This document shows, piece by piece, positions 15,518 through 41,078 of a stretch of DNA of 64,000 nucleotides. The position numbers were made by a program, and so were the translations under genes. The notes under the pieces were generated by a model. It did not search any database. It worked only from the letters and a program-made list of their open reading frames with translations, and had not been told where the DNA came from. Origin of the DNA: Hymenobacter swuensis DY53 (GTDB lineage: Bacteria > Bacteroidota > Bacteroidia > Cytophagales > Hymenobacteraceae); contig NZ_CP007144.1 in the NCBI RefSeq assembly GCF_000576555.1, positions 186,001 to 250,000 on the forward strand, given 5' to 3'. The number at the start of each line of letters is the position of its first letter. Within the stretch, counting starts at the first letter, position 1.

Positions 15518-18460
15518 ATGTTACCTGTGCCTATTCAAGAGACGTCTACCATAGCTTGTCTTACTTCTTATCAGGCCAAATACTTCGCTTACGACCTAAC
15601 TCGTCGTAGCCCAGAAGAATCTGAGCGCCTTTCTATGGCACTGTTCGATGCTGCTGTAGACCTTAACCCTCACCAGATTGAGGCCGCGCTTTTTGCCATT
15701 CAGTCACCGCTCTCAAAAGGAGTATTGCTCGCTGATGAAGTTGGTTTAGGCAAAACGATTGAGGCGGGCATTGTCCTTTGTCAAATGTGGGCCGAGCGTA
15801 GGCGCCGTTTACTGATTCTGTGTCCGGCCTCCCTGCGGCAGCAGTGGGCATTGGAGTTGCGCGAAAAATTCAACCTGCCGGCGGTGGTAGTCGATGCTAA
15901 AACGGCCCAGATGGCCCGCAAGGCCGACCTCGACCCGTTACACCAGGGCGCCGTGACCATCATGTCCTACCAGTATGCTAATACGGTTCGCGAGGCCATC
16001 CGTGGGGTAGAGTGGGACTTGGTAGTTATCGACGAAGCCCACCGCTTGCGCAATGCCTATCGGCCCAGCAATAAGGTAGGGCAGGGGATTAGCTGGGCTA
16101 CTGGCCACTGCCGCAAGCTCCTGCTCACAGCTACTCCGCTGCAGAATTCCCTGCTGGAACTCTATGGACTCTCCACCCTTATTGACGAGCAGCTATTCGG
16201 CGACCTGCCCTCTTTTCGCGAGCAGTTCACGGGCGCCAACGCCAACCTGGAAGCTCTCCGCCAACGCTTAACAAGCTTTTGCAAGCGTACGCTGCGCAAC
16301 CAGGTCACTGAGTACGTGCGCTACACGGAGCGCCGCACCATTACGCGCCCCTTCCAGCCCACCGACGACGAACATGCGTTATACGAAGCCATTACCAGCT
16401 TTCTGCAGCGCCCTGTTTCGTTTGCCATTCCGCAACGTCAGCGTCACCTTACGGAGCTGATTCTGCGCAAGCTGCTGGCCTCTTCACCCCTGGCCATTGC
16501 CGACACGCTCTTCACCATGAAAGCCAGGCTAATCGCACTGCGTGATACGCCGGCCGGGGCAGCCTCTGCATCCGATGCCGAGTTTGTCATGCAGATTGTG
16601 ATGGAAGACGACCTCGATGAGGAACTGCTCGATGACATTCTGGACGAGGACGAATCCGACCCTGTTGGCCCCGCGGAACTAGAGCTCGACCAGCAAATTA
16701 TTCAGGAGGAAATCCAGCTGCTGGACTACCTGGGCACCTGGGCTCGCTCTATCGGGACCGACACCAAAGCACGGGCCCTCGCCATGGCCCTGCACATTGG
16801 CTTCGAGCAGATGGCTACCACCGGAGCCAACCAAAAAGCGCTGATTTTTACGGAGTCGCGCCGCACCCAGGAATACCTCCGTACTCACTTGGAGGCCGAA
16901 GGGTATCGTGGCCGTATCGTTCTTTTCAATGGCACCAACGGCGACAGCGAAGCCGTTTGCATCTATCAGGATTGGCTTGCCCGGCACAGTGGGTCCAGCC
17001 GCGTCAGCGGCTCCCGGTCGATTGACATGCGCACGGCACTGGTGGAGTATTTCCGCGACGAGGCCGCCATCATGATTGCCACGGAAGCCGCTTCCGAGGG
17101 TGTCAACCTACAGTTCTGCTCCCTGGTCATCAATTACGACTTGCCCTGGAACCCGCAGCGTGTCGAGCAGCGCATCGGTCGCTGCCACCGCTACGGCCAG
17201 CGGCACGAAGTTGTCGTCATTAATTTTCTGAACGAGCGCAACCAAGCCGACCGCCGGGTACTGGAGTTGCTGACCGAAAAATTCAGCTTGTTCAATGGCA
17301 TTTTCGGCGCTTCCGATGATATCCTTGGCACCATCGAGTCGGGAGTTGATTTTGAGCGGCGCATTCTGGCCATCTACCAGCAGTGCCGTACGCCGGCGGA
17401 GATTGAGGCCGCTTTTCAAAAGCTCCGGGCCGAGCTCGACGAGCAAATCAAAACCCGGATGGATGACACCCGGCAGTTGCTGCTCGAGCACTTCGACGAC
17501 GACGTGCACCAGCGCCTGAAGCTCCGCCTGGAAGATACCCGCCATCAACTCGACAAGTTCAGCGCCAGGTTTTGGGCCTTAACCCGCACGCTGCTGGCAG
17601 ACCGTGCCCGATTCGAAGAGGCTTTCCTGTACTTCGACTTATTCCGGCCACCTCTGCCCGAGGTCTTGGCGGGGCGCTACTTCCTGCTCTCTAAATCACG
17701 TCCCACCGATGAGGGTCCCGCCGATATCCTCGAGGAGGGCGAAATTTTCCGCTACCGCCTTTCCCACCCGTTAGGCGAGTACGTGCTCGATACGGCCAAA
17801 TCCCTGGTCACGCCCTTTGCCCAGGTAGTGTTCGATGTTCGTCATCATCCCACCCGACTAGTGTTGGTCGAAGCGCTACGCGGCATGAGCGGTTACCTGA
17901 CGCTCACTCGCCTGTGCCTCGAAAGCTACGAGCACGAAGAATATCTGCTCTTCTCGGCCTTCGACGAAACGGGCCAGTCTCTCGACCAGGAAACCTGCGA
18001 GAAAATGCTGGTCTGCGCGGCGCATATAGCCGATGGCCTGCCCGAAGTGCCGGCCAGTGCCGCCAACCGCCTCCGGGCTGAGGCCGAGCGCCATGTGCAG
18101 GCTACTATCAGCCATTCGCTGGAGCGCAACAGCCGCTATTTCCACGAAGCCCGCGAAAAGCTGGAGCGTTGGGCCGAAGACCTGATTCTGGCGGCCGAAA
18201 AGGCCCTGCGCGATACCAAGGAGCAGATAAAACAGCAGCAGCGCCAAGCGCGTTTGGTACCCACGCTCGATGAACAGAAGGCCATTCAGCAGAAAATTAG
18301 CCAGCTTGAGCAGCAACAACGTCGGCAGCGGCAGGGAGTTTTCGAGGCTGAGGATGAAATCTTACAGAAACGCAACGACTTGATTGAAGCGCTTGAAAAG
18401 CGTCTCACCCACCGCACCACTACCGAGCACCTGTTCACTATCCGGTGGGCAGTGGTCTGA
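15518..18460 (+). CDS. SNF2-family helicase/translocase (first gene of the large array)
   Basis: This 980-residue protein is a complete Swi2/Snf2-like ATPase. LNPHQIEAALFA precedes LLADEVGLGKTIEAG near residues 70-84 (Walker A), LVVIDEAHRLRN near 170 (motif II), LLLTATPLQNS near 205 (motif III), and the C-terminal lobe has LVINYDLPWNPQRVEQRIGR followed by HRYGQ near 540-562. The last about 150 residues are a Gln/Glu/Arg-rich coiled coil. Proteins of this build track along double-stranded DNA and are frequent in phage-defence loci, such as the DrmD-type ATPase of DISARM. No methyltransferase or nuclease domain is fused. It leads nine plus-strand genes; the next follows by 49 bases. Promoter search in the 247-base upstream gap gave only weak -7 candidates. 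Confidence 0.88.
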   Translation: MLPVPIQETSTIACLTSYQAKYFAYDLTRRSPEESERLSMALFDAAVDLNPHQIEAALFAIQSPLSKGVLLADEVGLGKTIEAGIVLCQMWAERRRRLLILCPASLRQQWALELREKFNLPAVVVDAKTAQMARKADLDPLHQGAVTIMSYQYANTVREAIRGVEWDLVVIDEAHRLRNAYRPSNKVGQGISWATGHCRKLLLTATPLQNSLLELYGLSTLIDEQLFGDLPSFREQFTGANANLEALRQRLTSFCKRTLRNQVTEYVRYTERRTITRPFQPTDDEHALYEAITSFLQRPVSFAIPQRQRHLTELILRKLLASSPLAIADTLFTMKARLIALRDTPAGAASASDAEFVMQIVMEDDLDEELLDDILDEDESDPVGPAELELDQQIIQEEIQLLDYLGTWARSIGTDTKARALAMALHIGFEQMATTGANQKALIFTESRRTQEYLRTHLEAEGYRGRIVLFNGTNGDSEAVCIYQDWLARHSGSSRVSGSRSIDMRTALVEYFRDEAAIMIATEAASEGVNLQFCSLVINYDLPWNPQRVEQRIGRCHRYGQRHEVVVINFLNERNQADRRVLELLTEKFSLFNGIFGASDDILGTIESGVDFERRILAIYQQCRTPAEIEAAFQKLRAELDEQIKTRMDDTRQLLLEHFDDDVHQRLKLRLEDTRHQLDKFSARFWALTRTLLADRARFEEAFLYFDLFRPPLPEVLAGRYFLLSKSRPTDEGPADILEEGEIFRYRLSHPLGEYVLDTAKSLVTPFAQVVFDVRHHPTRLVLVEALRGMSGYLTLTRLCLESYEHEEYLLFSAFDETGQSLDQETCEKMLVCAAHIADGLPEVPASAANRLRAEAERHVQATISHSLERNSRYFHEAREKLERWAEDLILAAEKALRDTKEQIKQQQRQARLVPTLDEQKAIQQKISQLEQQQRRQRQGVFEAEDEILQKRNDLIEALEKRLTHRTTTEHLFTIRWAVV

Positions 18461-18509: not shown

Positions 18510-18785
18510 ATGCCTCCTAAAATCAACCTTTCCGTGCTCGAACCCGACAACATTACCTTCACCCCCGCCGGAGCCGAAAATTTCCAGCGCGCCTTGCTCC
18601 AAACCCGCCGGGCGCAGGTAACCGCCTACAACGCCAGTGGCGGCGTTGTCTGGAGCAAGCCCTGGAACGCCACCAAGCTTACGGCCAAGTCCAGGCTCAT
18701 CGGCAACATCATGACCCGCGCCGACATCCGGTACGCTCCCGATGCGTCCTCCATCGTGCGCCTGCACGCCGAGGTGCTCCCGTAA
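18510..18785 (+). CDS. small conserved-looking protein, 91 aa, of the array
   Basis: I place the start at ATG 18510, giving MPPKINLSVLEPDNITFTP at the front; the open frame extends upstream into the SNF2 gene, which is out of frame and therefore an unlikely start. The product is compact and hydrophilic, without membrane segment, and has QTRRAQVTAYNASGGVVWSK and KLTAKSRLIGNIMTRADIR. It may be a small adaptor or DNA-contact subunit. I do not know the family. Spacing to the SNF2 gene (49 bases) and to the RecD-like gene (89 bases) puts it in the same transcript. Composition and codon use match the neighbours. Confidence 0.6.
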   Translation: MPPKINLSVLEPDNITFTPAGAENFQRALLQTRRAQVTAYNASGGVVWSKPWNATKLTAKSRLIGNIMTRADIRYAPDASSIVRLHAEVLP

Positions 18786-18874: not shown

Positions 18875-21800
18875 ATGCCTACTCATATCACTGCCCGCGT
18901 CGCCTGGCACCAGGACGGCTGGAATGGCCACGTATGCCGCAACCCCGCCGCCAACCGGCACTGCGTTGGTCCGCATTCCTACCCCGGCACCAAAATTCAG
19001 GAAAGCCGCCAGCTCGAATGGGAGTTGGAAGTCGCCGGCCAAAGCTGCGCGCAGCTATCTGATGTGCCGCCCTGCATCTTTAGCATCAATGCCTTTGGGG
19101 CCGAAACCCTGACCGCTGCCGATACCCCGCCCAGCTTTTTTAATTCCGGCACCCGCACCCAGTGGGCCCTGCCGCCCGCCACCGTCTGCATCTGGCCCTA
19201 CGATGCCATGTACAACGACGAGGCCTACGGCGCCAATGGCCGCGTCGATAACACTCGTCGGCTGGAGATGGTGAAGGAATATCTGGATGAAATCGAGCCG
19301 GCCAAAAGCCTGGTGTTCCACTACGCCAACTACAGCAACCCCCTTAGCACCGACGACGAGAAGCGTTACGCCGTAGTGGGCTTGGCTCGCATCAAGCGCA
19401 TCGGCGACATCAACTACTACGACAACACCGACGAGGCCACCCGTAAGCAGTACGGCGGTGCCTATGCCTGGCAGATAAACGTGGAAACGCTCTACCCCGA
19501 CCAGGGCATGCGCATCCCGTACCACCGCTACCTCGACCAGCCCGAAATTCTGGAGCGCATCACGCTCATTCCCGACAACTCGGAAAATTTCAAGTACGGC
19601 TCCCGCCACATCACCGACGACGACGCCCTGGTGCTCATCGAGCGCTTCGTAGAAATTGCCAGTTACCTGCGCGAAATCGGCGACGACAGCGAGAACTGGT
19701 CCGTGCGCCTAAGCTGGCTAAACGGCCTGCTGGCCGAACTCTGGCGCAGCCGGGGCCTGTACCCCGGCCTAGCGCGCATCCTGAAAGTTGTCGGGCTGGA
19801 AGAAACCATTCCCGCCTGCCAAAAAGCCGTGGCCAGCCACCAGGAGCAGGAGTTCCACCGGGCTGTGTTCGACTGGCTCGACAACCCCGGAGCACCTCTG
19901 CCTGGCAAAAGCATATTGGCCGCCGATGCTGCTAAAATCCGCCGCGACTGGCAGTTGCGCACCGAGCCCGAGCAGCAGCTCCTGCGGGATATCCTGCCTC
20001 GGTTCGATCTGCCGGCCGAATACTTCGAAATCATCCTGAGCGACAGCCGCGCCGAGCACGGCATAACCGCCAATCCGGCCGACCTCATCAGCAACTCCTA
20101 CCTGCTGGCCGAGCAGTTCGGGGGTGACTACGCGGGCGAGTACATCTCCTTCAGCCGCATCGACCACGGCGTACTGCCCTCCCCGGAGTTGGGTGGCGCT
20201 TTTCTGCACCAGCCCAACGACTGGCGCCGCCTGCGCGCCCTGTGTGTCGACCGGTTGCGGGCTGAGTCCAAGCATACCTTCGTCAGCGGCGGCCAGCTGC
20301 TGCAGGAAATCAACCACAAGCTCTCCTTTCTGCCCGAGTGGAAACGCACGGAGTTCACCGAGCGCTACCTCACCATCGACCGCAAGGTGCTGGAGGAAAT
20401 GCTGGTCCTGCGTCCCGAAGGCACCCGCCAGTACGTGTACCTCCGTAGGGTATACGACGACGAGCGTGAGATTGAGAGCCAGCTCCGTAAGCTCGTCACC
20501 CGCCCCGATATTTCCTTCAAGCGCCCCGTCACGGCGGCGTTTTGGGAGGGCCTGCTCGCCGACCCGCAAAGCCCCCTTATGCAGCAGGACCGCGAGGCCT
20601 ACACCGCCGCCATCCAGCAGCAGGCCCAGGTGTGCGCCCGCGTCTTCACCCGGCCCGTGTCGGTGGTGTGCGGGGCCGCCGGCACCGGCAAAACCACCAT
20701 CATCAAAGCCCTGCTGCAAGGGGTGGAAAAGGCCCACGGCTCGGCCAGTTCCTTCCTGCTGCTGGCCCCCACCGGCAAGGCGGCCGACCGCATCCGGGAG
20801 AAAACCGGCAAGTCGGCCGAAACTATCCACAAGTTCCTGGCCCGCCACGGCTGGCTGAACGAGAACATGACCCTGAAGCAGACGGGCGGCGAGCGGGAGG
20901 CTGGCGTGACCACCTACGTCATCGACGAGGCCTCTATGCTCGACCTTGGCCTGCTGGCCGCTTTGTTCCGGGCCATCAACTGGAACACCGTGCAGCGCCT
21001 CATCATCGTCGGCGACCCCAACCAGCTGCCTCCTATCGGCCGTGGTAAGGTCTTTGCCGACCTCATCGACTGGCTGCGCGAGCACCACTCCGACAACGTG
21101 GGTGAGCTTACCGTGAACCTGCGCCAGATGGGCAACCGCCTCGAAGGGGCCGGCACCGGCATCCTAGATCTGGCCTCGCTCTACGTGCGCCCCGCCAAGG
21201 GAGCACCAAAAAACGAAGAAACCGGCCTGCGCGCCGAAGAGTTGTTCCAGAAACTGCAGGACCTGCCCGAGGACGGGATGGTTGACCAAGACCTGCGCGT
21301 CCTGTATTGGGAGGATGCCGAGCATTTGCAGGAAATCCTGGTCGGCCAGATGGTGGCCGATATGGAAGCCGATACCGGACAGCAGCTCGAACCTGACGCC
21401 CGCCACCAGCTTTGGCTGCAGGCGGCCAAAGCCGCCGATGGCTCCTTCCGTCCCGACTACCAGCAGGTCATCAGTCCCTACCGCAACGAAGAGTTTGGCA
21501 CCGCCGCCATCAATCTACGTCTCCAGCACGAAGCCCGCGAAAAATCCCTGGAAAGGGTAGGGGGCCTGGCCGGCATCACGCTCTACGATAAAGTGATGCA
21601 GATTCGCAATCGGGGCGCGTCCAACCGGCTCATTGCCTACGATTTCCAGGCCCGCGAAAGCATCGGCGGTGAGGTATTCAACGGCGAACTGGGCTACGTG
21701 GTGCCCCACGGCTTTGATAGCGGTACCTGGAAGAGCCCGCGCTTTCGCCTCAGCCGCTTTAGCGTGAAGTTTGACCGCAAGCAGCACCTGGCTTTCGGCT

Positions 21801-22507
21801 ACGGCAAAAAGCTGGGGTCTTACCAATACAAAGGCCGAACCCAGTGGGCTAACGAGGAAAAGCCCGAGGATAACCTGGAGCTGGCCTACGCCATATCCGT
21901 GCACAAGTCCCAGGGCAGTGAGTTCGAGCGGGTGTACTTCATTCTGCCCAAGCAAAAAACCACCCTGCTCTCACCCGAGCTGTTTTATACCGGCATCACC
22001 CGCGCCAGCCGCCACTGCACCATTCTGGTTCAGGAAGACATTGCCCCGCTACTGCGCATCTACCGCCCCGGGGCCTCGCACCTGGTCGGCATCAATTCCT
22101 CCTTGTTCGACTTCACGCCCGCGCCCGACGGCGCGGCCCAGCTCCGCGAAGCCGCCTACCTCGAAGAGGGCCGTCTGCACCAGACACTGGCCCCGGCCAT
22201 GGTGCGCTCCAAGTCCGAAGTCATCATCTCCAACCTGCTCTTCGAGCGTGAAATCCCCTTCTTCTACGAGCTGCCCCTCTACGCGCCCGACGGCTCCTTC
22301 TACCTGCCCGACTTCACCATCAAGTGGCGCGGCGAAACCTACTTCTGGGAGCACCTCGGCATGCTCGACCACGACGACTACCGCCGCCGTTGGGAAACCA
22401 AAAAGGCGTGGTACGAGCGCCATTTCCCCGGCCAGCTCATCACCACCGAAGAATCCGGCAACCTCTCGCCCGATGCCCAGCGTGTGGTGGAAAAGTGGTT
22501 TAGTTAA
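18875..22507 (+). CDS. RecD-like SF1B helicase with a C-terminal PD-(D/E)XK/Vsr-like nuclease domain
   Basis: The 1210 residues contain an N-terminal region of unknown type with spaced Cys/His (CRNPAANRHC), a helical middle, then a RecD2-like motor. Its blocks are CGAAGTGKTTIIKALL near residue 600 (Walker A), VIDEASMLDLGLLAALF near 682 (motif II), VGDPNQLPPIGRGKVF near 711, and the C-terminal UvrD_C_2 block ISVHKSQGSEFERVYFILP near 1008 with YTGITRASRH after it. The last about 110 residues form a separate nuclease-like module: SKSEVIISNLLFEREIPF, LPDFTIKWRGETYFWEHLG, then DYRRRWETKKAWYERHFPG. That order (E, then PDF and a later E with K) fits PD-(D/E)XK/Vsr-type folds. Likely role: 5'-3' unwinding coupled to cleavage. 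The next gene starts 14 bases later. Confidence 0.85.
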   Translation: MPTHITARVAWHQDGWNGHVCRNPAANRHCVGPHSYPGTKIQESRQLEWELEVAGQSCAQLSDVPPCIFSINAFGAETLTAADTPPSFFNSGTRTQWALPPATVCIWPYDAMYNDEAYGANGRVDNTRRLEMVKEYLDEIEPAKSLVFHYANYSNPLSTDDEKRYAVVGLARIKRIGDINYYDNTDEATRKQYGGAYAWQINVETLYPDQGMRIPYHRYLDQPEILERITLIPDNSENFKYGSRHITDDDALVLIERFVEIASYLREIGDDSENWSVRLSWLNGLLAELWRSRGLYPGLARILKVVGLEETIPACQKAVASHQEQEFHRAVFDWLDNPGAPLPGKSILAADAAKIRRDWQLRTEPEQQLLRDILPRFDLPAEYFEIILSDSRAEHGITANPADLISNSYLLAEQFGGDYAGEYISFSRIDHGVLPSPELGGAFLHQPNDWRRLRALCVDRLRAESKHTFVSGGQLLQEINHKLSFLPEWKRTEFTERYLTIDRKVLEEMLVLRPEGTRQYVYLRRVYDDEREIESQLRKLVTRPDISFKRPVTAAFWEGLLADPQSPLMQQDREAYTAAIQQQAQVCARVFTRPVSVVCGAAGTGKTTIIKALLQGVEKAHGSASSFLLLAPTGKAADRIREKTGKSAETIHKFLARHGWLNENMTLKQTGGEREAGVTTYVIDEASMLDLGLLAALFRAINWNTVQRLIIVGDPNQLPPIGRGKVFADLIDWLREHHSDNVGELTVNLRQMGNRLEGAGTGILDLASLYVRPAKGAPKNEETGLRAEELFQKLQDLPEDGMVDQDLRVLYWEDAEHLQEILVGQMVADMEADTGQQLEPDARHQLWLQAAKAADGSFRPDYQQVISPYRNEEFGTAAINLRLQHEAREKSLERVGGLAGITLYDKVMQIRNRGASNRLIAYDFQARESIGGEVFNGELGYVVPHGFDSGTWKSPRFRLSRFSVKFDRKQHLAFGYGKKLGSYQYKGRTQWANEEKPEDNLELAYAISVHKSQGSEFERVYFILPKQKTTLLSPELFYTGITRASRHCTILVQEDIAPLLRIYRPGASHLVGINSSLFDFTPAPDGAAQLREAAYLEEGRLHQTLAPAMVRSKSEVIISNLLFEREIPFFYELPLYAPDGSFYLPDFTIKWRGETYFWEHLGMLDHDDYRRRWETKKAWYERHFPGQLITTEESGNLSPDAQRVVEKWFS

Positions 22508-22521: not shown

Positions 22522-23823
22522 ATGGACGATACGCGTCAATCCTTCAGTAGCTTCTATCAACCGTCTTTTTTTCGGATGAATTTGGCTACGCCAAAATCAG
22601 TCAGCGACCTGAACAATTTCCCGGAAGAAGTTTGGCCGGCTTACTTACACGAGTACGTACACTTTCTGCAGGATATTTCAACCAGTGATGGGTTGTCCAA
22701 CGCTGCTACAGTTATTAATTACATTCGATATGGAGTAAGCCAGGTAAAGGAAGGTAAACCGCTGCCTCTCGAAGTTCCTCCTGATGCAATTATAGCACCC
22801 CAGCAACAACTACGTGCAATCTACCTGGGTGCTGGTTTGAAACAGAATCCTAAAGACAAAAGCGTTATTGATGTACGATTAGAGGACTCAGGGATAGTTC
22901 TACCGGATGAGCGCATTCCCAAGCAGGTAGTCGTTGAATTTGCTTCTGGCGAGCAGTTTCTGTTTGGGTCCTTCTGGATTGGCGAAAGCATGGCCAATAT
23001 TGTTGAAGGCCTCATCTACCCCCAAGAAAAAATACCCGTTCGAGTCGCCTATCATGCCGCCGAATTAGTCGTGCAGCACATATACCCCGTGTTAGCTAAC
23101 CAAAGCCGGGAAAACGTGCTTGCCCTCTGCGATGCTAGCCTGCTTTTTTGGCATCCAGGCCAATCGTTCGTCATGGTGCTGAAAAAGATGCGGGAGGAGC
23201 AATGGTTGCCGACGGTGCCGGAGGATATTTATGATTTTTCGCGAAAGAACATTCAGTTTGACTATGAGGAAATCAGTACAGTAGAAGGGCTGCTGGCTTA
23301 CTCGGCTGCCCAGGCTATTGAGTTCACCACGAGCGTATTTACGGCTGATAAATTTCTGCCAAACGCTCGATGGATTCGCGAAATCATCCTGCGAGCTGAG
23401 CTACTGCGCAACAAACAACCCGCCTTTATTCTGCAGTTGGTGCGGGGTGGGCCTCTGAAAACCAACCGCTTTTTTGCGTGGTTACTGAACTGGCTTGGCT
23501 CCCCACTGACTACTAACAATGACGATGAAGGGTCGCTGGCTCCCATGGCTGACTTCAGCGACATAGCCGACATGCACCTGGACCTCTTTCGGGCGATGCG
23601 TCAAGTAACGGCGTTGTTCATGGAAGGAAAGGTGGCGTGCGAAATGAAGTCTTACTGTCAAAGAAGCCAGGAAGAACAAGACCAGCCAGATTTTGTCGAC
23701 AGTCGCTGTACCAATGCGCCCTGGCAGCGTTGCAAAGACCAAAACCTGTGCGCCTTCGGGGCAATCTGGCGAATGTGGGGCCTCACCGATGTCGTGCCGC
23801 ATTTTGCAAGTGCGGCAACGTAG
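22522..23823 (+). CDS. HExxH-motif protein, possible zinc metallopeptidase, of the array
   Basis: The protein has 433 residues. LHEYVHFLQD at residues 42-51 is an H-E-x-x-H signature like that of gluzincin metalloproteases. A candidate third ligand is in the segment GESMANIVEGL near 155-165. The C-terminus has a cluster of Cys (CEMKSYC, then CTNAPWQRC and QNLC) that could bind a second metal or form an interaction knuckle. There is no signal peptide, so any protease would act in the cytoplasm. It is less GC-rich than its neighbours, a sign of separate origin. It starts 14 bases after the RecD-like gene and is followed by a REP-like repeat. The motif alone does not prove peptidase activity. 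I know of no named defence system with this protein beside a type III-like methylase. Confidence 0.6.
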   Translation: MDDTRQSFSSFYQPSFFRMNLATPKSVSDLNNFPEEVWPAYLHEYVHFLQDISTSDGLSNAATVINYIRYGVSQVKEGKPLPLEVPPDAIIAPQQQLRAIYLGAGLKQNPKDKSVIDVRLEDSGIVLPDERIPKQVVVEFASGEQFLFGSFWIGESMANIVEGLIYPQEKIPVRVAYHAAELVVQHIYPVLANQSRENVLALCDASLLFWHPGQSFVMVLKKMREEQWLPTVPEDIYDFSRKNIQFDYEEISTVEGLLAYSAAQAIEFTTSVFTADKFLPNARWIREIILRAELLRNKQPAFILQLVRGGPLKTNRFFAWLLNWLGSPLTTNNDDEGSLAPMADFSDIADMHLDLFRAMRQVTALFMEGKVACEMKSYCQRSQEEQDQPDFVDSRCTNAPWQRCKDQNLCAFGAIWRMWGLTDVVPHFASAAT

Positions 23824-31109: not shown

Positions 31110-34100
31110 ATGGTTGACACCTCTACAACCGCCTTATTTACTGCTCTCCAGGCTGACCGTACTGTCCTAGCCGATGCCCTCGACCGCCCCGCCCTGCGTG
31201 GCATCAAAAATGTACTAACTGACCTGACGCAGGGAGAAGCACATTTCATCTACGAGCTACTCCAAAACGCCGACGATGCCCGCGCCACCCAGGTTCGCTT
31301 CTGCTTGCTGCCCGAGGGTTTGTCGGTTTGGCACAATGCCCCCCAGAAATTCACCATCAGCGACGTAGCCACAGAGGAAGAAGATACGGGTACCGCGCAG
31401 TTGGGCCACCTGAACGCGCTGACTTCCATTGGCAACTCCACCAAGCGCCGCGGCACCAGCTCCGTCGATTCTGATACCATTGGCCGTTTTGGCATTGGGT
31501 TCAAGTCGGTGTTCCATTATACCGCCACGCCCCACGTCTATGAAGACGAGCTGAGCTTCCGCCTGGAGCGCATTCTGGTACCCGTGCCCCTAACCGACCG
31601 CCATGCTCTGCCGCCCGGTCTGGAGAGGGGAGGAGCTGAATGGACGCAGCTATGGCTGCCCTTCAACCACGCGCAGCGCCCCGCTGCCGAGGCCTACCAG
31701 CATGTGCTGCGCCGCCTGCGCACCTTGCGCTTACCCTTATTGTTTCTGCGCAACCTGACGGAGATTTCCTGGGAGGCACGACCTGTTTTTCAGGAGCTCA
31801 TCACCGATAGCGGCTACTACCTCCGCGAGATACCCCGCTTGCTGTCCGAGCAGGCTACCACTGCTATTCGGGTCGAGTACGTGGAGCTCATTCAGGAAGA
31901 CCGTTGCACTAACACCGATACCGGCGACCAGGTAACGGTAGCCGCGCACCGCTTCGTGGTCGTCAAACAGCCCTGCCACGACCACCTCAACCTGCCGGTA
32001 TGCCTGGCCTTTGCCCTGCGCGACAACGGCACCCTCGACCCCAGCGCCGACGACCGCGGCCATGAGGCCTTCTGTTTCTTTGCTACCCGCCACCGCACCG
32101 GCCTGCGCTTTCTGCTTCAGGCTCCCTGGCTGCTGACCAACAACCGGGAAGCCATCAAAGCCGATCAGCCCTGGAATCAGCAGCTGGTACAGCAGCTGGC
32201 CCAGTTACTGGCCGCCAGTCTGCCCTTGCTCCGCGACCTGCGCCCGGCCGACTTGGCCCGCCCCGGCACCCCGGCCGCCCCGTATCTGTCCCTGCTCACC
32301 GATGAGCTGCTCCAACTGCTGCCCCTGAGCGACGCACCCGACGCCGAGCAGCGCACGGTCGAAGAGCTGCGTCAGCGCCAGGAACTGTCGTTCCGGCCTT
32401 TCCATGCGGCCGTGTTCGAAGCACTACGCACCCTACCGCTGCTGCCCACAGCCACCGGCACGCACATCGGGGCCACCCATGCCTACTATGCCGAAAGCCG
32501 CGAATTAAGTCAGGCGTTCGGTCAGGAGCAGCTGCGCCAGCTTATGCAGGACCCGGCGGCCGAGTGGGTGTTTGATAGCGTAGGCGGTAAGGAAAACAAA
32601 TTCCAGACCGCTTACCTCAGGCGCCTGCTGTCGGCCTCCCACCTGCTGGAGCCCAAAGAAGCCGCCAGTCGGCTTACCGCTGCCTTTATGGAAGCGCAGA
32701 CAGATGAGTGGCTCACGGCCTTCTATCTATACCTGAGCACCGGCCCCGGATACCTGCTCGACGGCCAGAACGACGCTATTCTCCGCCACCGGGGTGCCCT
32801 GTTGCGGTTGGCCAACGACAAACACCTGGCGCCCTATGCGGCTGTTCGGGATACCGAGCCACAGGTGTTTTTGCCCCCTACCAGCGGCGGCTTTCAAAGC
32901 AATTGTACCCTGAAATCCTGCTTCGCGCAGGACGAGCAGCTGGCCAGCTTCCGCCGGCGCTTAGGTCTGACCACGCCCAAACAGCTCACGGTAATGCTGG
33001 AGTACATCTTGCCCCAGTACACCGGTGCCGAAGGCCCTTCCCTTGCTGAGCACCTGGAGCATATCGCGCAGATTCTCGACTGCTGGCAGACGTGCTCCCA
33101 GCAGGAACAAGTCGTACTGCGCGAGCGGCTGCTGGTAACGCCGTTTATGCGCGGCTATATATACCCCAGCGCCACCCCCGAATACCGTTGGTACCGACCT
33201 GGCCAGCTATATCGGGATAACGAGGACCTGCGGCAGTACTTCACGGCGTCAGAAGCCACTTTTGTGGATGAGGACACGTACGCCGGCATAACGGATATGA
33301 CCGGAGTAAAAGCGCTATGGCAAGCCTTGAGTGTCGCCACCGTTCCTCGGGTTATACAGCTTGACAATCAACCCATCACGGCTGACGACCGCGCGGCCCT
33401 CTGGAAGGTGCGCAGCACCTGGACTGAGGATCAGAAGGTGGTAAACCACGATTTGGACGGCTTAGCGGCACTGCTGGCCCCTGGAATTATCCCGCAAGCA
33501 CTGTCCCAAACGCTCTTCGGCTTTCTCTGCCTTTGCATTGAGCAAGCTGATGTACGGTTGTTTAATCGGGTATATACCTTTTCCTACTACGGTCCTAATC
33601 CCGTTATAACGGCTTCCCAGGCACTGCTGCTGCTGCGACAGACGGCCTGGCTCTACGACCAGATCGGCCAGCCACGCCATCCGCACGAGTTTGCTGCCGC
33701 CGACATTCAGCTGGCCAACGGCTACATCCTCGATACGTCCGCCGCGCAGGAGTTGCTGCGCCGGCTGGATATCCTCTCACCCCGGCAAAAGGTGCTCGAT
33801 GGCCTGCCCGCCGCCGAGCGGGAGCTAGTGGAATTCTTTCGCGAAATGAAGTCGAAAGGCTTCACTGTTGAGGAAATTCGGGCAGCCATAGCCAAGCTCC
33901 GACCGGCCCCCACGGTCGTACCGCCCACGCCCGCAGCCGAGCCGCTGGCCGATCAGGAGCGTAAGCAAACCTGGCAAGCCACGCGCGAGGCCGCCACCTC
34001 CCCGCCACCTGCTGCCGAGCCTACCAGCTCCGCCGAGTCAGCCGCCGAGGCTCCAGAAGGCGAGGAAGATGATTACTTGAGCGAGGCCTCCCGCCGCAAG

Positions 34101-36131
34101 TTGTTGCGGGCTCAACAGCAGGTGCAGCAGCTCGAAGATGAGCTGCGCCAGCAGGATGAGCTATTTCGTGAAGTCGAGCAGACCGAGCGCTACACCTATA
34201 GCTGGTTCCAGGCCTTGCTGACGCTGGAAACCCGCCTCAGCAACCGCCGCAACGAAGGCGCCAGCGGGTTCTCGCTTTCCTTCGGCCGGGTCGAGAAAGA
34301 CCCCGATGCGCCCTTGCTGATCCTGCACGAGCCGGTCGGACCCATCCCCCGCACCGTGGAAGACCATCCGGAGTTGAAGCTGCGCTTGTACCGCCGGGGT
34401 CAGCCCGACCAATCCATCCAGATTGACGTGGTCAGCATCAAGGACTTCACGCTGCGGGCTAAGCTGCGCAAGGAGGACTGGGCCGCCATCGACCCCGCTT
34501 CCATCCAGCGCGCCAGCATCCAGGTGCAGTCCCCTGCCTTTCTGCTCGATGAGCTGGTGCGGCAGTTTAATCAATTAGCACATTCTCCGCATAATTTCAC
34601 TGCCGACACCAACCTGCAAGCCAATCTGCCGGCGAAGCTGCGCTTTGTTTTCGGCCCGCCCGGCACCGGCAAAACCTACCACTTGGCCCATCGCGAGATT
34701 GAACAGCTCATGCAGCAGGCGGAGCCAGTGCGCATCTTGGTGCTCACGCCTACCAACAAGGCCGCCGACGTGCTTACCGCCCGGCTGCTGCCTGCCGCCG
34801 AGGCTGGCCTGCCGCCCGAGCGTCCCGATTGGCTTTTCCGTTACGGAGTCCCCGCCGATACGAACCTGGAACAGGTGCCGGGGCTGGTGCAGGATAAAAA
34901 GCTGAATGTGTCGGATCTTGAACGGTGCACGGTGTTAACTACCGCCGCCCGTTTTCCCTATGCGCTGTGTGATGGAGGGTACCACTATCTGGCTGCTGTC
35001 CCGTGGGATTATATCATACTGGACGAAGCCTCTATGATACCCTTATACCAGGCGGTTAACGTCATTTACCAGCAGCCGCACTGTCGCGAGTTTATCATCG
35101 GGGGCGACCCATTGCAGATTCCACCCGTGGTCCACGCCGAGCCGTGGGCTGGCGAAAACATTTACACGCTGGTCGGGCTCGATAATTTCGACGTGGAAGT
35201 AACCCCGCAGCATCAGTTTCCCGTCCACAAGCTGTTGACGCAGCGTCGGGCTACCCCTCCGCTCGGGCGTCTGTTCAGCCAGTTTGCCTACGGCGGCCGG
35301 CTTCAGCACGCCCGCCCCTTAACGGGCACGGCCGTACTGGACGGTCACACATACCAGGGACGGCGGCCCGAAACATTCGGCGCACTGCCCTTGAGCGACA
35401 TCACGGTGATTCCTTTTCCCGTGCGCCGCGGCGAAGGCATTTTAGAAGCCCGCAAGCTGGAGCAAGGCAGTAACTACCAGGCCTACTCGGCTCTGCTGGC
35501 GGCCGAACTCACGCGCTACCTGGCCCAACACATCCAGCCCGCGCCGGCCCCGGACACCGCCGACCGCTACCGGGTGGGCATCATCACGCCTTATACCGCG
35601 CAGGCTGCCTTGCTGCGCGAGCTGCTCAAGCAATTACCACTGTCGAACGCCATCCTAAATCCGAATGAAGATGTGGGCACGATTCACGGCTTCCAGGGCG
35701 ACGAATGCAATTTGGTCATCGCCCTGTTTGCTCCCCCACCTACCACGGGCGACCGGATTTTGCTTAGTTACCAACACATTTTGAATGTTGCCATCAGCCG
35801 CGCCCGCGACCGGTTAGTGCTCCTGGTGCCCGAGTACGAAGACGACCGATCCTCCGGGCTAGGTTTACAACGCTTGCGCCAGCTACTCGGGTTACTTAAC
35901 CATGAGCAGGAGGGGCAGGTCACGCATTTGACTGCCAAAGCGGTAGAGCAGGTGTTGTTTGGGCCCGACCACGAAGAGTTCATCCTCTCCAATAGCTTTA
36001 CCACCAGCCACCAGCTGGTAAATGTTTATGGGCAAGGAGTAGCGCGCTATGAGCTCCGCTTCGGTCCTACGGCAGTGGACGTGCAAGTAAACCTGAAAGC
36101 CAAACTAGCGGAAGCGGACATATTACCGTAG
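31110..36131 (+). CDS. sacsin-type GHKL ATPase fused to an SF1 (UPF1-like) helicase
   Basis: The protein has 1673 residues. The N-terminus is a sacsin/Hsp90-like GHKL ATPase: HFIYELLQNADDARA near residues 45-60 (N box), DTIGRFGIGFKSVFHYT near 122-140 (G2 box). A long middle is followed by a Glu/Gln-rich coiled coil near 990-1020. The C-terminal 500 residues are an SF1 helicase: FGPPGTGKTYHLA near 1181 (Walker A), ILDEASMIPLYQAV near 1302 (motif II), GGDPLQIPPVVHAEP, TIHGFQGDECNLVIALF near 1525, and NVAISRARDRLVLL near 1555. GHKL-helicase fusions are found in bacterial defence islands, and the GHKL part may act as an ATP-driven clamp. The neighbours on both sides also process nucleic acid. The gene is intact; the next begins 29 bases later. 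Confidence 0.85.
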   Translation: MVDTSTTALFTALQADRTVLADALDRPALRGIKNVLTDLTQGEAHFIYELLQNADDARATQVRFCLLPEGLSVWHNAPQKFTISDVATEEEDTGTAQLGHLNALTSIGNSTKRRGTSSVDSDTIGRFGIGFKSVFHYTATPHVYEDELSFRLERILVPVPLTDRHALPPGLERGGAEWTQLWLPFNHAQRPAAEAYQHVLRRLRTLRLPLLFLRNLTEISWEARPVFQELITDSGYYLREIPRLLSEQATTAIRVEYVELIQEDRCTNTDTGDQVTVAAHRFVVVKQPCHDHLNLPVCLAFALRDNGTLDPSADDRGHEAFCFFATRHRTGLRFLLQAPWLLTNNREAIKADQPWNQQLVQQLAQLLAASLPLLRDLRPADLARPGTPAAPYLSLLTDELLQLLPLSDAPDAEQRTVEELRQRQELSFRPFHAAVFEALRTLPLLPTATGTHIGATHAYYAESRELSQAFGQEQLRQLMQDPAAEWVFDSVGGKENKFQTAYLRRLLSASHLLEPKEAASRLTAAFMEAQTDEWLTAFYLYLSTGPGYLLDGQNDAILRHRGALLRLANDKHLAPYAAVRDTEPQVFLPPTSGGFQSNCTLKSCFAQDEQLASFRRRLGLTTPKQLTVMLEYILPQYTGAEGPSLAEHLEHIAQILDCWQTCSQQEQVVLRERLLVTPFMRGYIYPSATPEYRWYRPGQLYRDNEDLRQYFTASEATFVDEDTYAGITDMTGVKALWQALSVATVPRVIQLDNQPITADDRAALWKVRSTWTEDQKVVNHDLDGLAALLAPGIIPQALSQTLFGFLCLCIEQADVRLFNRVYTFSYYGPNPVITASQALLLLRQTAWLYDQIGQPRHPHEFAAADIQLANGYILDTSAAQELLRRLDILSPRQKVLDGLPAAERELVEFFREMKSKGFTVEEIRAAIAKLRPAPTVVPPTPAAEPLADQERKQTWQATREAATSPPPAAEPTSSAESAAEAPEGEEDDYLSEASRRKLLRAQQQVQQLEDELRQQDELFREVEQTERYTYSWFQALLTLETRLSNRRNEGASGFSLSFGRVEKDPDAPLLILHEPVGPIPRTVEDHPELKLRLYRRGQPDQSIQIDVVSIKDFTLRAKLRKEDWAAIDPASIQRASIQVQSPAFLLDELVRQFNQLAHSPHNFTADTNLQANLPAKLRFVFGPPGTGKTYHLAHREIEQLMQQAEPVRILVLTPTNKAADVLTARLLPAAEAGLPPERPDWLFRYGVPADTNLEQVPGLVQDKKLNVSDLERCTVLTTAARFPYALCDGGYHYLAAVPWDYIILDEASMIPLYQAVNVIYQQPHCREFIIGGDPLQIPPVVHAEPWAGENIYTLVGLDNFDVEVTPQHQFPVHKLLTQRRATPPLGRLFSQFAYGGRLQHARPLTGTAVLDGHTYQGRRPETFGALPLSDITVIPFPVRRGEGILEARKLEQGSNYQAYSALLAAELTRYLAQHIQPAPAPDTADRYRVGIITPYTAQAALLRELLKQLPLSNAILNPNEDVGTIHGFQGDECNLVIALFAPPPTTGDRILLSYQHILNVAISRARDRLVLLVPEYEDDRSSGLGLQRLRQLLGLLNHEQEGQVTHLTAKAVEQVLFGPDHEEFILSNSFTTSHQLVNVYGQGVARYELRFGPTAVDVQVNLKAKLAEADILP

Positions 36132-36160: not shown

Positions 36161-37459
36161 ATGACAAACCTTTCGCTGTTTGCCAGTCATTACCGCAAGC
36201 TAGGCCTGCCGGTAACGCGGATTAGTAATATCCTTAACGAGCATAATTTTTTTCATAAAAACATATTTAAAACGCCTGACCATCAGTGGCAGCACCTTTT
36301 CACCCAGCCGCAGTCAGATGATGAGTTTAAACAACTAACTTGGAATAACGCCACTGGGCTAGGTACTGTCTCGGGTCCTAAATCTTTGTTGGTTATAGAT
36401 ATAGATGGTTGTACCGATTACAAGCTAGTGGAGAAAACATTAGCTGAGCTTGGGTTGCCTCCTTCTTATGAATGGGTGGTAACGTCAGGCAGCGGTAGCG
36501 GCTTCCACATATTTGTGTACGCCGATAAATTTCGCATTCAGTCCAATAGCTTAGCTCCATCAGCAAGTAATCATGTGGTAACTACCTTCATGCCCGGTGA
36601 CGGATACCTGCAACGGTTCGATAAGATTGAATTTTTGTGGAGCACGCATGTAGTCTTACCTCCTTCTCTCCATCACACCGGTAACAGGTATGAGTTCTTG
36701 AACTGCAGGCTGCCCCGCGCATTACCGCAACGAGTAAAGCAGTCAGGCTTGTACGATATTGTGCGAAAGCACTGTGACGCACAATTCATTGAAGGCAGGG
36801 ATGGGTACAAAGAGAATGACTTTGAAGTAGCTAAACCCAATGTTCCTACCGATTTAGAAGAGTGGAATGCTGCAGATGTAGAGGGAGGAGAAATTTTTTG
36901 CGTTGTATGTATCAGGCCAGAAGCAAACATGCCACTCAGCGCTACTGCTGACCTACGGCAAATTGCTTGGGTTGTGATGGATAAATTAGGGAAGGTGCAT
37001 AACCGTCGATCCTACTTGCTAAAACCCCAAGTAGCTGTTTCAGCTTCTGGCGCCACAAGCTACTCCACAGAAGTAAACACTCTGCTGAGCCAAGATCCAC
37101 TCACCGTCTTCAAAGAACTCAACCGCGACTTGCGGTTATGTACTGCTTTGGTTTCTTTCGATGTGAAGCCTGTGCTGGCCTTACTGCAGGAAAAATCAAC
37201 TCAGTATTCACTTTATCACACGCTAACACAACTGAATTTAGTTTGTCTTAAAAAACCACGTGGCGGAAATAAAGCAAATACGTTAGCTGACCTCTACCTA
37301 AGTTTGTTTCGCTACGATGTGCATCAAATACCTGATGCTGAGTCAGATGCACTCATAATGGCTAAATGCTTGCGCGCAATCTTGAGGAAACGTCAGGATA
37401 ATAAGGAGGACTATTATTCCATCTACCTCGACAGGGAAGGGTATGGCGGTTGGTACTAA
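36161..37459 (+). CDS. primase-polymerase (prim-pol) domain fused to an exonuclease-like domain
   Basis: The protein has 432 residues. The N-terminal half matches the bifunctional DNA primase/polymerase (AEP) family: NATGLGTVSGPKSLLVIDID near residues 65-84 supplies the D-x-D metal ligands, and TSGSGSGFHIFVYAD near 110-125 supplies the nucleotide-binding His. The C-terminal part from about 245 looks like a DnaQ-type fold (IAWVVMDKLGKVHNRRSYLL, later LVSFDVKPVLALL and HQIPDAESDALIMAKC). However, the first motif lacks the usual D-x-E, so catalysis is doubtful. The gene is distinctly AT-richer than the genes on either side. It overlaps the DinG-like gene by 17 bases, which suggests translational coupling. 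Prim-pols in defence loci may prime, extend or tag DNA ends; which of these applies here is unknown. Confidence 0.75.
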   Translation: MTNLSLFASHYRKLGLPVTRISNILNEHNFFHKNIFKTPDHQWQHLFTQPQSDDEFKQLTWNNATGLGTVSGPKSLLVIDIDGCTDYKLVEKTLAELGLPPSYEWVVTSGSGSGFHIFVYADKFRIQSNSLAPSASNHVVTTFMPGDGYLQRFDKIEFLWSTHVVLPPSLHHTGNRYEFLNCRLPRALPQRVKQSGLYDIVRKHCDAQFIEGRDGYKENDFEVAKPNVPTDLEEWNAADVEGGEIFCVVCIRPEANMPLSATADLRQIAWVVMDKLGKVHNRRSYLLKPQVAVSASGATSYSTEVNTLLSQDPLTVFKELNRDLRLCTALVSFDVKPVLALLQEKSTQYSLYHTLTQLNLVCLKKPRGGNKANTLADLYLSLFRYDVHQIPDAESDALIMAKCLRAILRKRQDNKEDYYSIYLDREGYGGWY

Positions 37460-40400
37460 TAAAGCTGCTGTGCGTGTCGCGGTAGCGCACTTGTTCGCCA
37501 CCGGTGCGTACCGCCCCGATACCAAACACGGCCTGCTTCACCTGGGCGTGCTGCCCCTGCAGCCCGGCGCCGAGGTAGAACACTGGCTGCTCAACCCCGA
37601 GCGCGACTACCCCAAAGCCGTGACCGAAGCCAGCGGTATCGGCCGCGACCGGTCCCGGCAGCATCCTACTTGGGGCGAGGCGGCCGCCACCATTCAGCCC
37701 GTACTGGCCGGGTTCGACGTGCTGCTTATCATGGACCGGGCCGGTGAGCCATCCGCCGAGCGCCACTGGCTGGAGCAGTGCGTGCTGGCTGGCCTGGAGC
37801 GCCCGCCCGTATGCATCGGACTCGATGAGTTGCTGGCCTTTTTCCTGCCCGGTGAGGAGCTGGACGACGCCGACGAGCTGCTGCGCACCTTCGTCGTGCG
37901 CGACAAAGCTGCCAGTGAGCAGCTAGGCTATGCCAAGCGCAACGCCGATGGCCGGGTGCCGCAGTTGCCGTTTGTGCTCTACGCCATGCGCCGGGCCCTG
38001 CGCCGCGTCCTCGCCAGCCTGCTGCGCCCCGAGGGTACCGGCCCCCAGCAGTGGTTGCCCATTTTTAGCCTGCTCGACAGCGTCGTGCGTCGCGCGCCTC
38101 GTCAGCGTACCTCCCGCGCCTACCGCCTGCTGCATACCCTAGCCCGCCAGCCTCGTTGCTGCGACGAGGCCACCCCTGCGCCAACCGACCAGCCGCTGTC
38201 CATCCCGCCGGCATTGCCCGCTTGGCCTTCCTCTGAGCACGTAGAAACCCTGGTCTTCAACTATCTGGCCCGTTGGCGCGACCGGCCCGACGATGCCACC
38301 GCTCCTGAGCTGGGGTTGGGCGATGTATCGGAAAAGCAGGTAGCCGATGCTTTTGAGGAGCTGGGCAAGCGCCTGGCCGGTGCCGGCCGCGACAGCAAAG
38401 ACAAGCTGCAAACCCGCCCGCAACAGGTTGAGTACGCCCAGTTCGTGGCCCAGTCCATCGGCGGCCGGGGCGCGTATGCCATTGAGGCCGGTACCGGCAC
38501 CGGCAAAACCTACGGCTACCTGGTGCCGGCGCTGGAGTACCTGCGCCACGCGCCATCAGCGTTGGTGGTCGTAGCCACCTCCACCAAAAACCTGCAGGAG
38601 CAGATGCGCCGTGGCGAGCTGCCCCGCCTGCTGCGCGAGCCCGACGGCCGCCGCAACCCGCGCTACCAGGCCATCCGCACGGCCACGCTCAAGGGAAAAA
38701 ACTGTTACCTGTGCGCCATGGCCCTGGCTCAGGCCTACGACGACTGCTTTCAGCTCAGCGCCGACTGGGCCGAGGGACTAGCGTGGCTGTATCTGCTGCT
38801 GCGCCTGCGCGACACCGAAGGCGAGATAGAAGGGGTGGCCCGTCCCCTAAACGCCCACCCGCAGCTCGGGCCGTTCCTGCGCGGCCTCGTTCGCCGTGTT
38901 GCGGCCGACCGGGCCTGCCGGCATGCCCCGTTGCCGGGGCGCAAGCCCTGCGTGTATCCGGCTCACCGCGCCCGTGCTGAGCAGGCCCACCTGCTCATCG
39001 TCAACCACCATAAGCTGGCCCTGCTGCCCCTTAAGGTGGTAGAGCGCGCTACCGTGTGCGTCATCGATGAGGCCGACCGCTTCCCTGACAACTTCCGCTC
39101 GGCCCTGGCCAGCAGCCTCGACGCCCGCGAGCTACAGGAAGAGCTGTTCGAGCCGTTGCTCGACGGTAGCCGCTTGCCTAGTCGACGCCCCACCGCCAAC
39201 AGCAAGCCCCAGGACGAGGCCAGGACGGAGCGCCGTGCGGTGCCCTTCCTCCCCGAGCTGGACGAGCGCCTCTACGAAGTGCAGGAGCAGTTGTGGCGCG
39301 AAGTGCCCGCTGCCGAACAGCCCGGTCCCGACGAGGCTAGCCGCGCCGCCTACGAGCTGGTGGAAGAGGCCCGCCTGGCCGAGCTGGGTAGTCAGGCCGC
39401 CCTGCTGGAGGAGGTAGCCCTGCTGATGCTCGAAACGCCTGTCGCCGCCGACACCCGCCAAAGCGCCGACGCTGCCTGGCAGCTGTTAGCCATTGAAAGC
39501 GCCCCGTTCCGGCGCCGTCAGGCGCTCCGCACCGCTGCCCGGGCCGTCGCGGCCTCCTACGAGCCGCTGCGCGAAAGCCAGTTGCTGCTGACCCACCTGA
39601 GCAGTCAGTTCCAGAGCCGCGGCGGCCGTCTGGCCCCGTTGCCCTTCCCGGCCGGCGGTACGCACTGGCAAGACAATCTGCGCGTGGCGGAACATGGCCG
39701 GCCTCCCATCTTCCGCCCCTTCCATCAGGAGCTGGTGGCCGCCCTGCAACCATTGCAGCCCCCACTTGCCGACGCCTCCCACCAGCTGGGATGCCTGCGG
39801 CGCCACCTGGTTCAGGCCCTCAATATCAGCCTCTCCAGCGGCGAGGCAGCGGACGAAGATGCCCCCGACGTGGAAAGCAGCGGTAGCTACGACGAGCGGC
39901 TGTATCGCCGTGCCGAGCGCTTCGCCGAGCTGGCCCAAAGCCAAGCTGAAATCCTGGTACGGCTCCTGTCGGAGTTTCCTTGCCGGGGCTACGTGCCCGT
40001 TGTCGAGCGTGACCCTGTCGCCGGCCCGCTGAGCTGGCAGCTGGGCCGCCAGCCCTACGAGCTCTGGTCGTACCTGGGCGCCACGCCCGACCCGGCCACC
40101 GGCCATCCCCTGGTCCGCGAGCCGGACGAAGCCGACGAGGCCTTCCAGGCCCGCTGGCTGGCGGCGCGGGCCGCCCTGCAGCGCCTGAGCCGGGAGCCCG
40201 ATAAACCCTTGCTGGAGCAGTTCCGGTCCGTCATCTTCACCTCGGCCACGCTCTACGTGCAGGGCACGCTGCAGTATTTCCGCCAGCAGCTGGATTTGCG
40301 CGTGCCCTTCGCCGGTGAGCAGCGCATCCGGCCGCTGTTTGATTACAACAATGAGCGGGGCGAGCAGGTGTTAGCGGGGATTCCCACGTACTTGCCGCAG

Positions 40401-41078
40401 TTCCGTGCCGGTGCCCGCCCCGATGAGAAGCGCGCCTGGTGCGAAATCCAGCTACGAACCTTGCTACCGCTGTTGGTGGCCCTTGAAGGCCGTACCCTGG
40501 TACTGTTCACCTCCAACGAGGAAATGCACCTGGCCGCCGACTGGCTTCGTGAGCGGCTGGCCGCCCACGATATTGAGCTGCTGGTGCAGAACGGGGCCAG
40601 CCAGTGGGAAATCCGCCGCTTCCGCCAGCTTGAGCAAAGCGTACTGCTCGGCGTCGACCGCATGTGGACCGGTGTCGATTTCGCCGGACCCACCCTTTCC
40701 CAGGTTATCGTATGGCGACTGCCGTTTCCCTCCCTGGGCGAGCCACTGATCAGCCACCGGAAACGCTATGAGCCCGATGAGGTATTCTGGGGGCAGTTCT
40801 ACCGTCCCGCCGCCCGTCTGAAGCTGCGACAGGGTTTTGGCCGTCTCGTGCGCCGTCAGCGCGACCGGGGCGCCTTCGTCGTGCTCGACGCCCGCGCCGC
40901 CACCGGCTTCTACGCCAACGTCCTCGATGAGCTGGAAGTAGAGGCCTTCCATCGGTTTGGCACTCCCACAGCGCTATTTGAGCAAACGGCCGGCCCGTTG
41001 CTCAAGCTCCTGGAGCTCGGCGCCGACTTCCACCGCCGCGAACTGAGTGTATCGCGGCTTCTAGAGCTGAGCCAATAG
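37443..41078 (+). CDS. DinG/XPD-type iron-sulfur helicase with a DnaQ-like N-terminus
   Basis: The protein has 1211 residues. The first about 190 resemble a DnaQ exonuclease fold (HLGVLPLQPGAEVEHWLLNP, then VTEASGI and a block around FDVLLIMD), but the canonical D-x-E is absent, so it is probably a structural or inactive domain. The helicase follows: IEAGTGTGKTYGYLVPAL near residue 347 (Walker A), a [4Fe-4S] insert with Cys near 421, 424, 490 and 502 (KNCYLC, RACRH, KPCVY), VIDEADRF near 540 (DEAD), and C-terminal blocks GVDRMWTGVDFAGP and RLKLRQGFGRLVRRQRDRG (motif VI, Q-x2-GR-x2-R). DinG/XPD enzymes unwind DNA 5' to 3'. It is the last gene of the array and very GC-rich. The paired DnaQ-like folds here and in the upstream prim-pol gene are notable. 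Confidence 0.85.
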   Translation: MAVGTNKAAVRVAVAHLFATGAYRPDTKHGLLHLGVLPLQPGAEVEHWLLNPERDYPKAVTEASGIGRDRSRQHPTWGEAAATIQPVLAGFDVLLIMDRAGEPSAERHWLEQCVLAGLERPPVCIGLDELLAFFLPGEELDDADELLRTFVVRDKAASEQLGYAKRNADGRVPQLPFVLYAMRRALRRVLASLLRPEGTGPQQWLPIFSLLDSVVRRAPRQRTSRAYRLLHTLARQPRCCDEATPAPTDQPLSIPPALPAWPSSEHVETLVFNYLARWRDRPDDATAPELGLGDVSEKQVADAFEELGKRLAGAGRDSKDKLQTRPQQVEYAQFVAQSIGGRGAYAIEAGTGTGKTYGYLVPALEYLRHAPSALVVVATSTKNLQEQMRRGELPRLLREPDGRRNPRYQAIRTATLKGKNCYLCAMALAQAYDDCFQLSADWAEGLAWLYLLLRLRDTEGEIEGVARPLNAHPQLGPFLRGLVRRVAADRACRHAPLPGRKPCVYPAHRARAEQAHLLIVNHHKLALLPLKVVERATVCVIDEADRFPDNFRSALASSLDARELQEELFEPLLDGSRLPSRRPTANSKPQDEARTERRAVPFLPELDERLYEVQEQLWREVPAAEQPGPDEASRAAYELVEEARLAELGSQAALLEEVALLMLETPVAADTRQSADAAWQLLAIESAPFRRRQALRTAARAVAASYEPLRESQLLLTHLSSQFQSRGGRLAPLPFPAGGTHWQDNLRVAEHGRPPIFRPFHQELVAALQPLQPPLADASHQLGCLRRHLVQALNISLSSGEAADEDAPDVESSGSYDERLYRRAERFAELAQSQAEILVRLLSEFPCRGYVPVVERDPVAGPLSWQLGRQPYELWSYLGATPDPATGHPLVREPDEADEAFQARWLAARAALQRLSREPDKPLLEQFRSVIFTSATLYVQGTLQYFRQQLDLRVPFAGEQRIRPLFDYNNERGEQVLAGIPTYLPQFRAGARPDEKRAWCEIQLRTLLPLLVALEGRTLVLFTSNEEMHLAADWLRERLAAHDIELLVQNGASQWEIRRFRQLEQSVLLGVDRMWTGVDFAGPTLSQVIVWRLPFPSLGEPLISHRKRYEPDEVFWGQFYRPAARLKLRQGFGRLVRRQRDRGAFVVLDARAATGFYANVLDELEVEAFHRFGTPTALFEQTAGPLLKLLELGADFHRRELSVSRLLELSQ

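Follow-up and report, generated by a model that had tools for sequence, protein, structure and literature searches.

In the 5.25-Mb genome of Hymenobacter swuensis DY53, a 64,000-nt stretch (hereafter the window; contig C2:186001-250000, NZ_CP007144.1) carries an array of nine genes that an original prediction had taken for a single large anti-phage system. We conclude with moderate confidence that the array is a type III restriction-modification (R-M) core, made up of the methyltransferase Mod, the restriction subunit Res and an SNF2 translocase, with embedded and trailing cargo modules, rather than a new machine built of nine genes. The single-system claim was not borne out, in that the nine-gene order was absent from every other locus read. 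All nine open reading frames (ORFs) were confirmed on the plus strand across 15518..41078, with the small gaps or overlap described before. Protein families were assigned with Pfam, PADLOC and NCBIfam profiles, and a pattern search of the array proteins recovered the expected catalytic motifs.

An SNF2 translocase accompanies type III Mod and Res

Mod and Res are adjacent, with a gap of about 270-280 bases, and matched the PADLOC models MTase_III (PDLC03646, 674 bits) and REase_III (PDLC03654, 665 bits), upholding the proposal that they form an R-M core: a Mod-family methyltransferase is present together with a neighbouring Res that bears a helicase and a PD-(D/E)xK nuclease motif. The best solved (PDB) relatives of Mod, a protein of about 1100 amino acids (aa), were type III Mod proteins, including EcoP15I. 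The Res frame opens at 27152 within Mod; because homology sets in only at about residue 183 and ATGs occur in frame at 27596, 27650 and 27728, we moved the predicted start to 27650 (1104 aa), which we prefer to 27728, either being likelier than 27152. The SNF2 protein scored 680 bits against the PADLOC DrmD model PDLC02619 and 684 against the NCBIfam DrmD model, below the cut-off of 950 for the latter; RapA was its best solved relative.

To gauge how regularly these genes occur together, we inspected their neighbourhoods elsewhere (G and L numbers are our identifiers for genomes and loci). Array-type SNF2 was present in four of 200 genomes of the family, including the source genome, all of which also carry type III Mod-Res-type genes. 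SNF2, Mod and Res are contiguous in G138, and in G212 and G224 SNF2 heads AIPR genes, a short type III Mod and a Res-sized gene. SNF2-Mod-Res runs also occur on Klebsiella plasmids of a single lineage (where Mod adjoins a 550-aa Res piece), on an Aeromonas plasmid (where Mod and Res are separated by genes for an AAA ATPase and a DUF4276 protein) and on a Blastomonas plasmid (where a 170-aa gene separates SNF2 from Mod); a Conchiformibius plasmid has the order Mod-Res-SNF2.

A scan of IMG/VR with an SNF2 alignment returned at least 79 loci. The clade of the array protein comprised 27 of them (L210-L236; full-length, with best-segment identity ≥38%, except in contig-cut genes), its boundary against L237-L288 having been set after the identity gap had been seen. 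Six clade loci were left out as their contigs end right past SNF2 (L214, L216, L221, L229, L234 and L235). The 21 informative loci, among which there were no near-copies, had a type III-like methylase, long or short by our own labelled panel, near SNF2 in all cases except L233; the methylase is convergent in L227, and that of L231 belongs to a DISARM-like locus. The 52 more distant loci, only 25 of whose stretches reach 15 kb, showed a type III gene once and any R-M, BREX or DISARM panel gene five times. Viewed in reverse, SNF2 lay directly upstream of Mod in 11 of 20 long-Mod loci (L188-L207), or 10 of 19 distinct ones after merging the copies L189 and L201. Contig ends truncate some of the other loci, and L197, which has no annotated gene and by tblastn holds Mod and Res and no SNF2, was counted as lacking it among the 20. 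Pairwise distances were correlated for SNF2-Mod (r 0.72, 14 loci), SNF2-Res (0.74, 13) and Mod-Res (0.81, 13), with a permutation p of 0.0002 each, host ancestry still being included in these values.

The association of SNF2 with Mod-Res thus held in the viral contigs (20/21) and in the family genomes (4/4). A type III R-M core with SNF2 as third component is well supported, and many type III R-M loci appear to have this motor as a regular third subunit. We found no description of the trio in open-access titles and abstract openings, subscription literature being outside the scope of that search.

Between SNF2 and Mod lies a slot of changing content. In the array it is occupied by the genes for the 91-aa, RecD-like and HExxH proteins; elsewhere it holds AIPR genes (G212, G224 and L219), an Abi gene next to an insertion sequence (Salmonella) or unnamed genes (L217, L218, L220, L222, L223 and L225).

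Table 1 Features of the array, in window coordinates
Feature	Position	Strand	Remarks
SNF2/RapA-type SF2 translocase, DrmD-like clade	15518..18460	+	PF00176/PF00271; PADLOC DrmD; core
91-aa protein in SNF2/Mod slot	18510..18785	+	no family match
PDC-S68 RecD-like protein	18875..22507	+	PADLOC PDC-S68; RecD2-type SF1 helicase; C-terminal PD-(D/E)xK-like nuclease motif
HExxH (zincin-like) protein, unnamed family	22522..23823	+	HEYVH at residue 43
GC-rich palindrome, HExxH-Mod gap	23845..23876	.	similar one in Mod-Res gap near 27531-27562
Long type III Mod methyltransferase	24040..27381	+	PF01555; DPPY + FAGSG motifs; core
Type III Res, SF2 helicase + PD-(D/E)xK motif	27650..30964	+	PF04851; core
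Sacsin-type GHKL ATPase fused to SF1 helicase	31110..36131	+	PF25794, AAA_12; TmtA/MkoA partial PADLOC matches
Prim-Pol, archaeo-eukaryotic primase type	36161..37459	+	PF09250; peripheral
DinG-type helicase	37443..41078	+	PF13307; NCBIfam dinG_rel below cut-off

PDC-S68 recurs across modification-based defence systems

The RecD-like protein is a full-length match (1761 bits, residues 1-1208) to the PADLOC candidate PDC-S68, the 'S' of which denotes a single-gene candidate. Weak structural prediction suggests a PUA/EVE/YTH-like domain at its N-terminus, and the nuclease-like C-terminus was recognized by motif, without a family match. In an alignment of 17 members, no variation is seen at the Walker A lysine, at the DE pair or, within the nuclease-like end, at E1115, D1146 and E1159.

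We read 24 PDC-S68 neighbourhoods, 23 of them fetched without near-copies, leaving out two partial plasmid hits (H7 and H8) and a 4.2-kb contig (L111); neighbours were labelled partly by PADLOC and partly by blastp against our own panel of labelled proteins. In 15 of the 24, the gene and those of a modification-based system form one run on the same strand. These comprise type III (the window only), type I including a methylase gene (G104, G156, G131, G524, G290, L112 and the L109/L251 contig), type I with S, R or R-like genes only (G708, G201, G378 and L110), IIG/ISP (Paracoccus), BREX (G175, in the order BrxF, RecD, PglX, BrxH, PglZ, BrxA) and DISARM (L016, with DrmA and DrmB). An R-M system adjoins on the opposite strand in two loci (Bartonella L005 and G123, L075), two have SNF2 and sacsin genes as their only partners (L007 and L097), and no R-M gene was seen in the remaining five (L006, L008, L017, which lies beside a pAgo pair, L018 and L099). 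As a loose control, an R-M panel gene was found in 1 of 75 generic RecD2 loci from viral, mostly phage-type contigs.

PDC-S68 is found within or next to modification-based defences of five kinds, in many loci for type I and in a single locus for each of the others, and is best read as an accessory module whose family recurs across such systems. Open-access titles and abstract openings, the scope of our literature search (subscription literature lay outside it), yielded no description of PDC-S68 as a module inside R-M, BREX or DISARM operons. A type I operon ending with the RecD-like gene (L095:5621-17343) also contains, between HsdS and HsdM, a gene of 483 aa that matches pAgo weakly (56 bits).

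The remaining genes are accessory or peripheral

Matches of the sacsin-helicase to models of TmtA, the Tiamat protein, are confined to residues 23-544 (119-120 bits), and many of its relatives lack the C-terminal helicase. An IMG/VR scan gave 13 loci, L298 and L301 being near-copies. A type III Mod or Res lay near the sacsin gene in seven, on the same strand in four (L298, L299, L301 and L307) and on the opposite strand in three (L303, L305 and L308); a RecD-like gene was a neighbour in one (L302) and SNF2 in two (L308 and L309). The family search placed a type III system beside the sacsin gene in one of three other genomes (G015, L078, opposite strand), and in G175 BREX and the RecD-like gene within it lie on the strand opposite the sacsin gene. 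Further sacsin-RecD neighbours (L007, L097, L109 and L292) were found via the RecD-like gene and are a biased sample; L097 and L109 have SNF2, sacsin and RecD in a row. The neighbourhoods show both the RecD-like and the sacsin-helicase protein repeatedly in the company of restriction systems, and the sacsin-helicase is best read as a second recurrent partner and accessory module. Sacsin-type genes also adjoin UvrD (GajB-like) helicases in L303, L304 and L307; such pairs, and the SNF2-sacsin-RecD rows, may be separate multi-gene systems.

The HExxH protein had no match in Pfam, PADLOC or NCBIfam. Among 310 fetched loci it had two distant homologues, in G005 and on an Aliarcobacter plasmid, neither at a RecD-like or Mod locus; four C-terminal cysteines are common to all. 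It, too, is best read as an accessory module. In G005 (L102:7179-10245) the relative lies directly upstream of a UvrD-like helicase gene; the window HExxH gene adjoins the RecD-like helicase gene. The 91-aa protein likewise matched nothing in the three profile collections, and its only homologues among the 310 loci were in those overlapping the window.

Prim-pol and DinG are probably passengers. Prim-pol relatives, every match partial, were present in 3 of the 200 family genomes including the source; G142 has two homologous pieces, both placed between HsdM and HsdR. An exonuclease-like reading of the prim-pol C-terminus was dropped, as that part had no family match in Pfam or NCBIfam. DinG relatives occurred in 21 of the 200 genomes, again including the source, and in all seven neighbourhoods read they belong to a conserved block of the chromosome from which panel R-M genes are absent. 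The 17-base overlap with prim-pol is the sole sign of coupling for DinG.

Layout and composition of the array

Intergenic distances, in order and counting Res from 27662, are 49, 89, 14, 216, 280, 145, 29 and -17 bases. The two largest gaps, on either side of Mod, each hold a GC-rich palindrome (a strict pattern for it has three sites in the genome, one of them within the window), and given these similar palindromes a single transcript for the array is not established. GC content is 45% in prim-pol, 50% in HExxH and 67.5% in DinG, with 58-63% in the remaining genes, which fits array pieces of differing origin.

Downstream, the minus strand carries a PLD/helicase/DUF3427 type IV restriction enzyme (44486-47680; PADLOC mREase_IV, 755 bits) and a tyrosine integrase (49577-50545). 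Upstream, also on the minus strand, a DEAD domain ends ORF 11005-15270 and Helicase_C starts the overlapping ORF 7113-11021; the pair (7113-15270) looks like one helicase gene broken near 11010, and a UvrD helicase comes after it.

Alternative readings

The original prediction had allowed that a Mod/Res pair recurring without genes that vary independently would point to separate systems stacked by chance. Independent occurrence was largely what we found for RecD, HExxH, sacsin, prim-pol and DinG, whereas SNF2 stays linked to Mod-Res. None of the 20 long-Mod loci had a panel match to RecD, HExxH, sacsin or prim-pol, and across the 200 family genomes, hits above cut-offs for RecD-like, Mod, sacsin, SNF2 and DinG co-occurred only in the source genome, G138 (SNF2 with Mod) and G175 (RecD-like with sacsin). 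That these proteins mostly inhabit different genomes also favours an ordinary defence island, in which a type III R-M system with SNF2, independent single-gene defences (PDC-S68 and the sacsin-helicase) and non-defence genes were stacked by chance without functional link. The uneven GC, the plasmids that carry PDC-S68 with no R-M gene nearby and the single-gene 'S' of its name agree with this account. The placement of PDC-S68, flanked by subunit genes of BREX (G175), type I (G104, G156 and G290) and type III (the window) systems, is more specific than clustering, and we regard chance stacking as rather unlikely.

One large nine-gene system is less probable again. Its genes are co-directional with small gaps, SNF2, sacsin and RecD-like genes also meet in L097, L109 and L007, and prim-pol pieces lie inside the type I operon of G142. 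Against it stand the lack of a second copy of the gene order among the loci read, the chromosomal block in which the seven DinG homologues read reside, and the scarcity of relatives of the 91-aa and HExxH proteins in the fetched loci. Slightly more doubtful still is a DISARM derivative in which Res replaced DrmA/DrmB beside a DrmD-like SNF2 and a methylase: SNF2 does score best against DrmD models, and both L230 (SNF2-Mod-Res-DrmA-DrmB in one run) and L231 (SNF2-DrmA-DrmB) join the two worlds, yet the NCBIfam score falls short of its cut-off and the array ORFs lack DrmA, DrmB and MZB. The same-strand run of L230 (L230:6559-18463) may connect type III R-M with DISARM.

Discussion

The type III core with cargo modules resembles R-M systems of the EcoP15I and Mbo45V kind in its DPPY/FAGSG Mod and its adjacent Res with SF2 helicase and PD-(D/E)xK motif, and departs from them in the length of Mod and in the SNF2 motor and variable slot genes of the locus. 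With class 1 DISARM, the kind with DrmD and DrmMI, it shares a DrmD-like SNF2 and an adenine-type methylase; it has Res in place of DrmA/DrmB. In agreement with the original prediction, the array ORFs and the six main flanking ORFs scanned contained no DrmA or DrmB (DUF1998/MZB) beyond helicase-core cross-matches and no PglZ of BREX. The same ORFs had no BrxC/PglY and no MZB match that would indicate a YprA-like helicase. PDC-S68 is a PADLOC candidate, of which the array gene is a full-length member. Some BREX systems embed the type IV enzyme BrxU. Like these and the PUA-type modification-dependent endonucleases (VcaM4I, PMC7897488), the array may pair a modification-protected system with a complementing enzyme for modified DNA, here a RecD2 helicase-nuclease whose putative reader domain is a weak structural match. 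The closest general precedent for modules is the idea that HEPN genes in R-M operons provide multi-pronged defence (PMC3710099). ARMADA, defined by a YprA-like helicase (PMC12458937), and BREX-related systems (PMC12839542) also combine an SNF2-type helicase with a methylase in multi-gene defence arrays; neither a YprA-like helicase nor PglZ was found in the array ORFs.

From gene content, motifs and the recurrence of SNF2-Mod-Res and of PDC-S68 with R-M, BREX and DISARM, we infer the following model. Type III Mod methylates adenine in its target, and Mod-Res would cut unmethylated invading DNA, as type III enzymes do between sites in inverse orientation. The DrmD/RapA-like SNF2 would translocate on DNA to assist Mod-Res, for instance by removing bound proteins or driving Mod-Res between sites. 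PDC-S68 would most likely attack what escapes the host system: a modified base in Res-resistant phage DNA would be recognized by its N-terminal PUA/EVE/YTH-like domain, with the helicase then unwinding and the PD-(D/E)xK domain degrading that DNA. Alternatively within the same model, it would degrade ends made by Res. Modified-base reading is the boldest interpretation that the evidence allows and is unproven. We tentatively extend it to PDC-S68 as a possible general plug-in, a modified-base-reading RecD2 helicase-nuclease in type I, IIG, III, BREX and DISARM operons that would destroy phage DNA whose modifications defeat the host system; the sacsin-helicase and SNF2 would be further interchangeable modules, and one operon would cover unmodified and modified phage DNA alike.

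The apparent nine-gene novelty thereby becomes a testable modular rule. Should the reader domain prove genuine, it would hint at the way in which restriction systems protect against base-modified phages, and PDC-S68 would be an anchor for finding composite operons of this sort.
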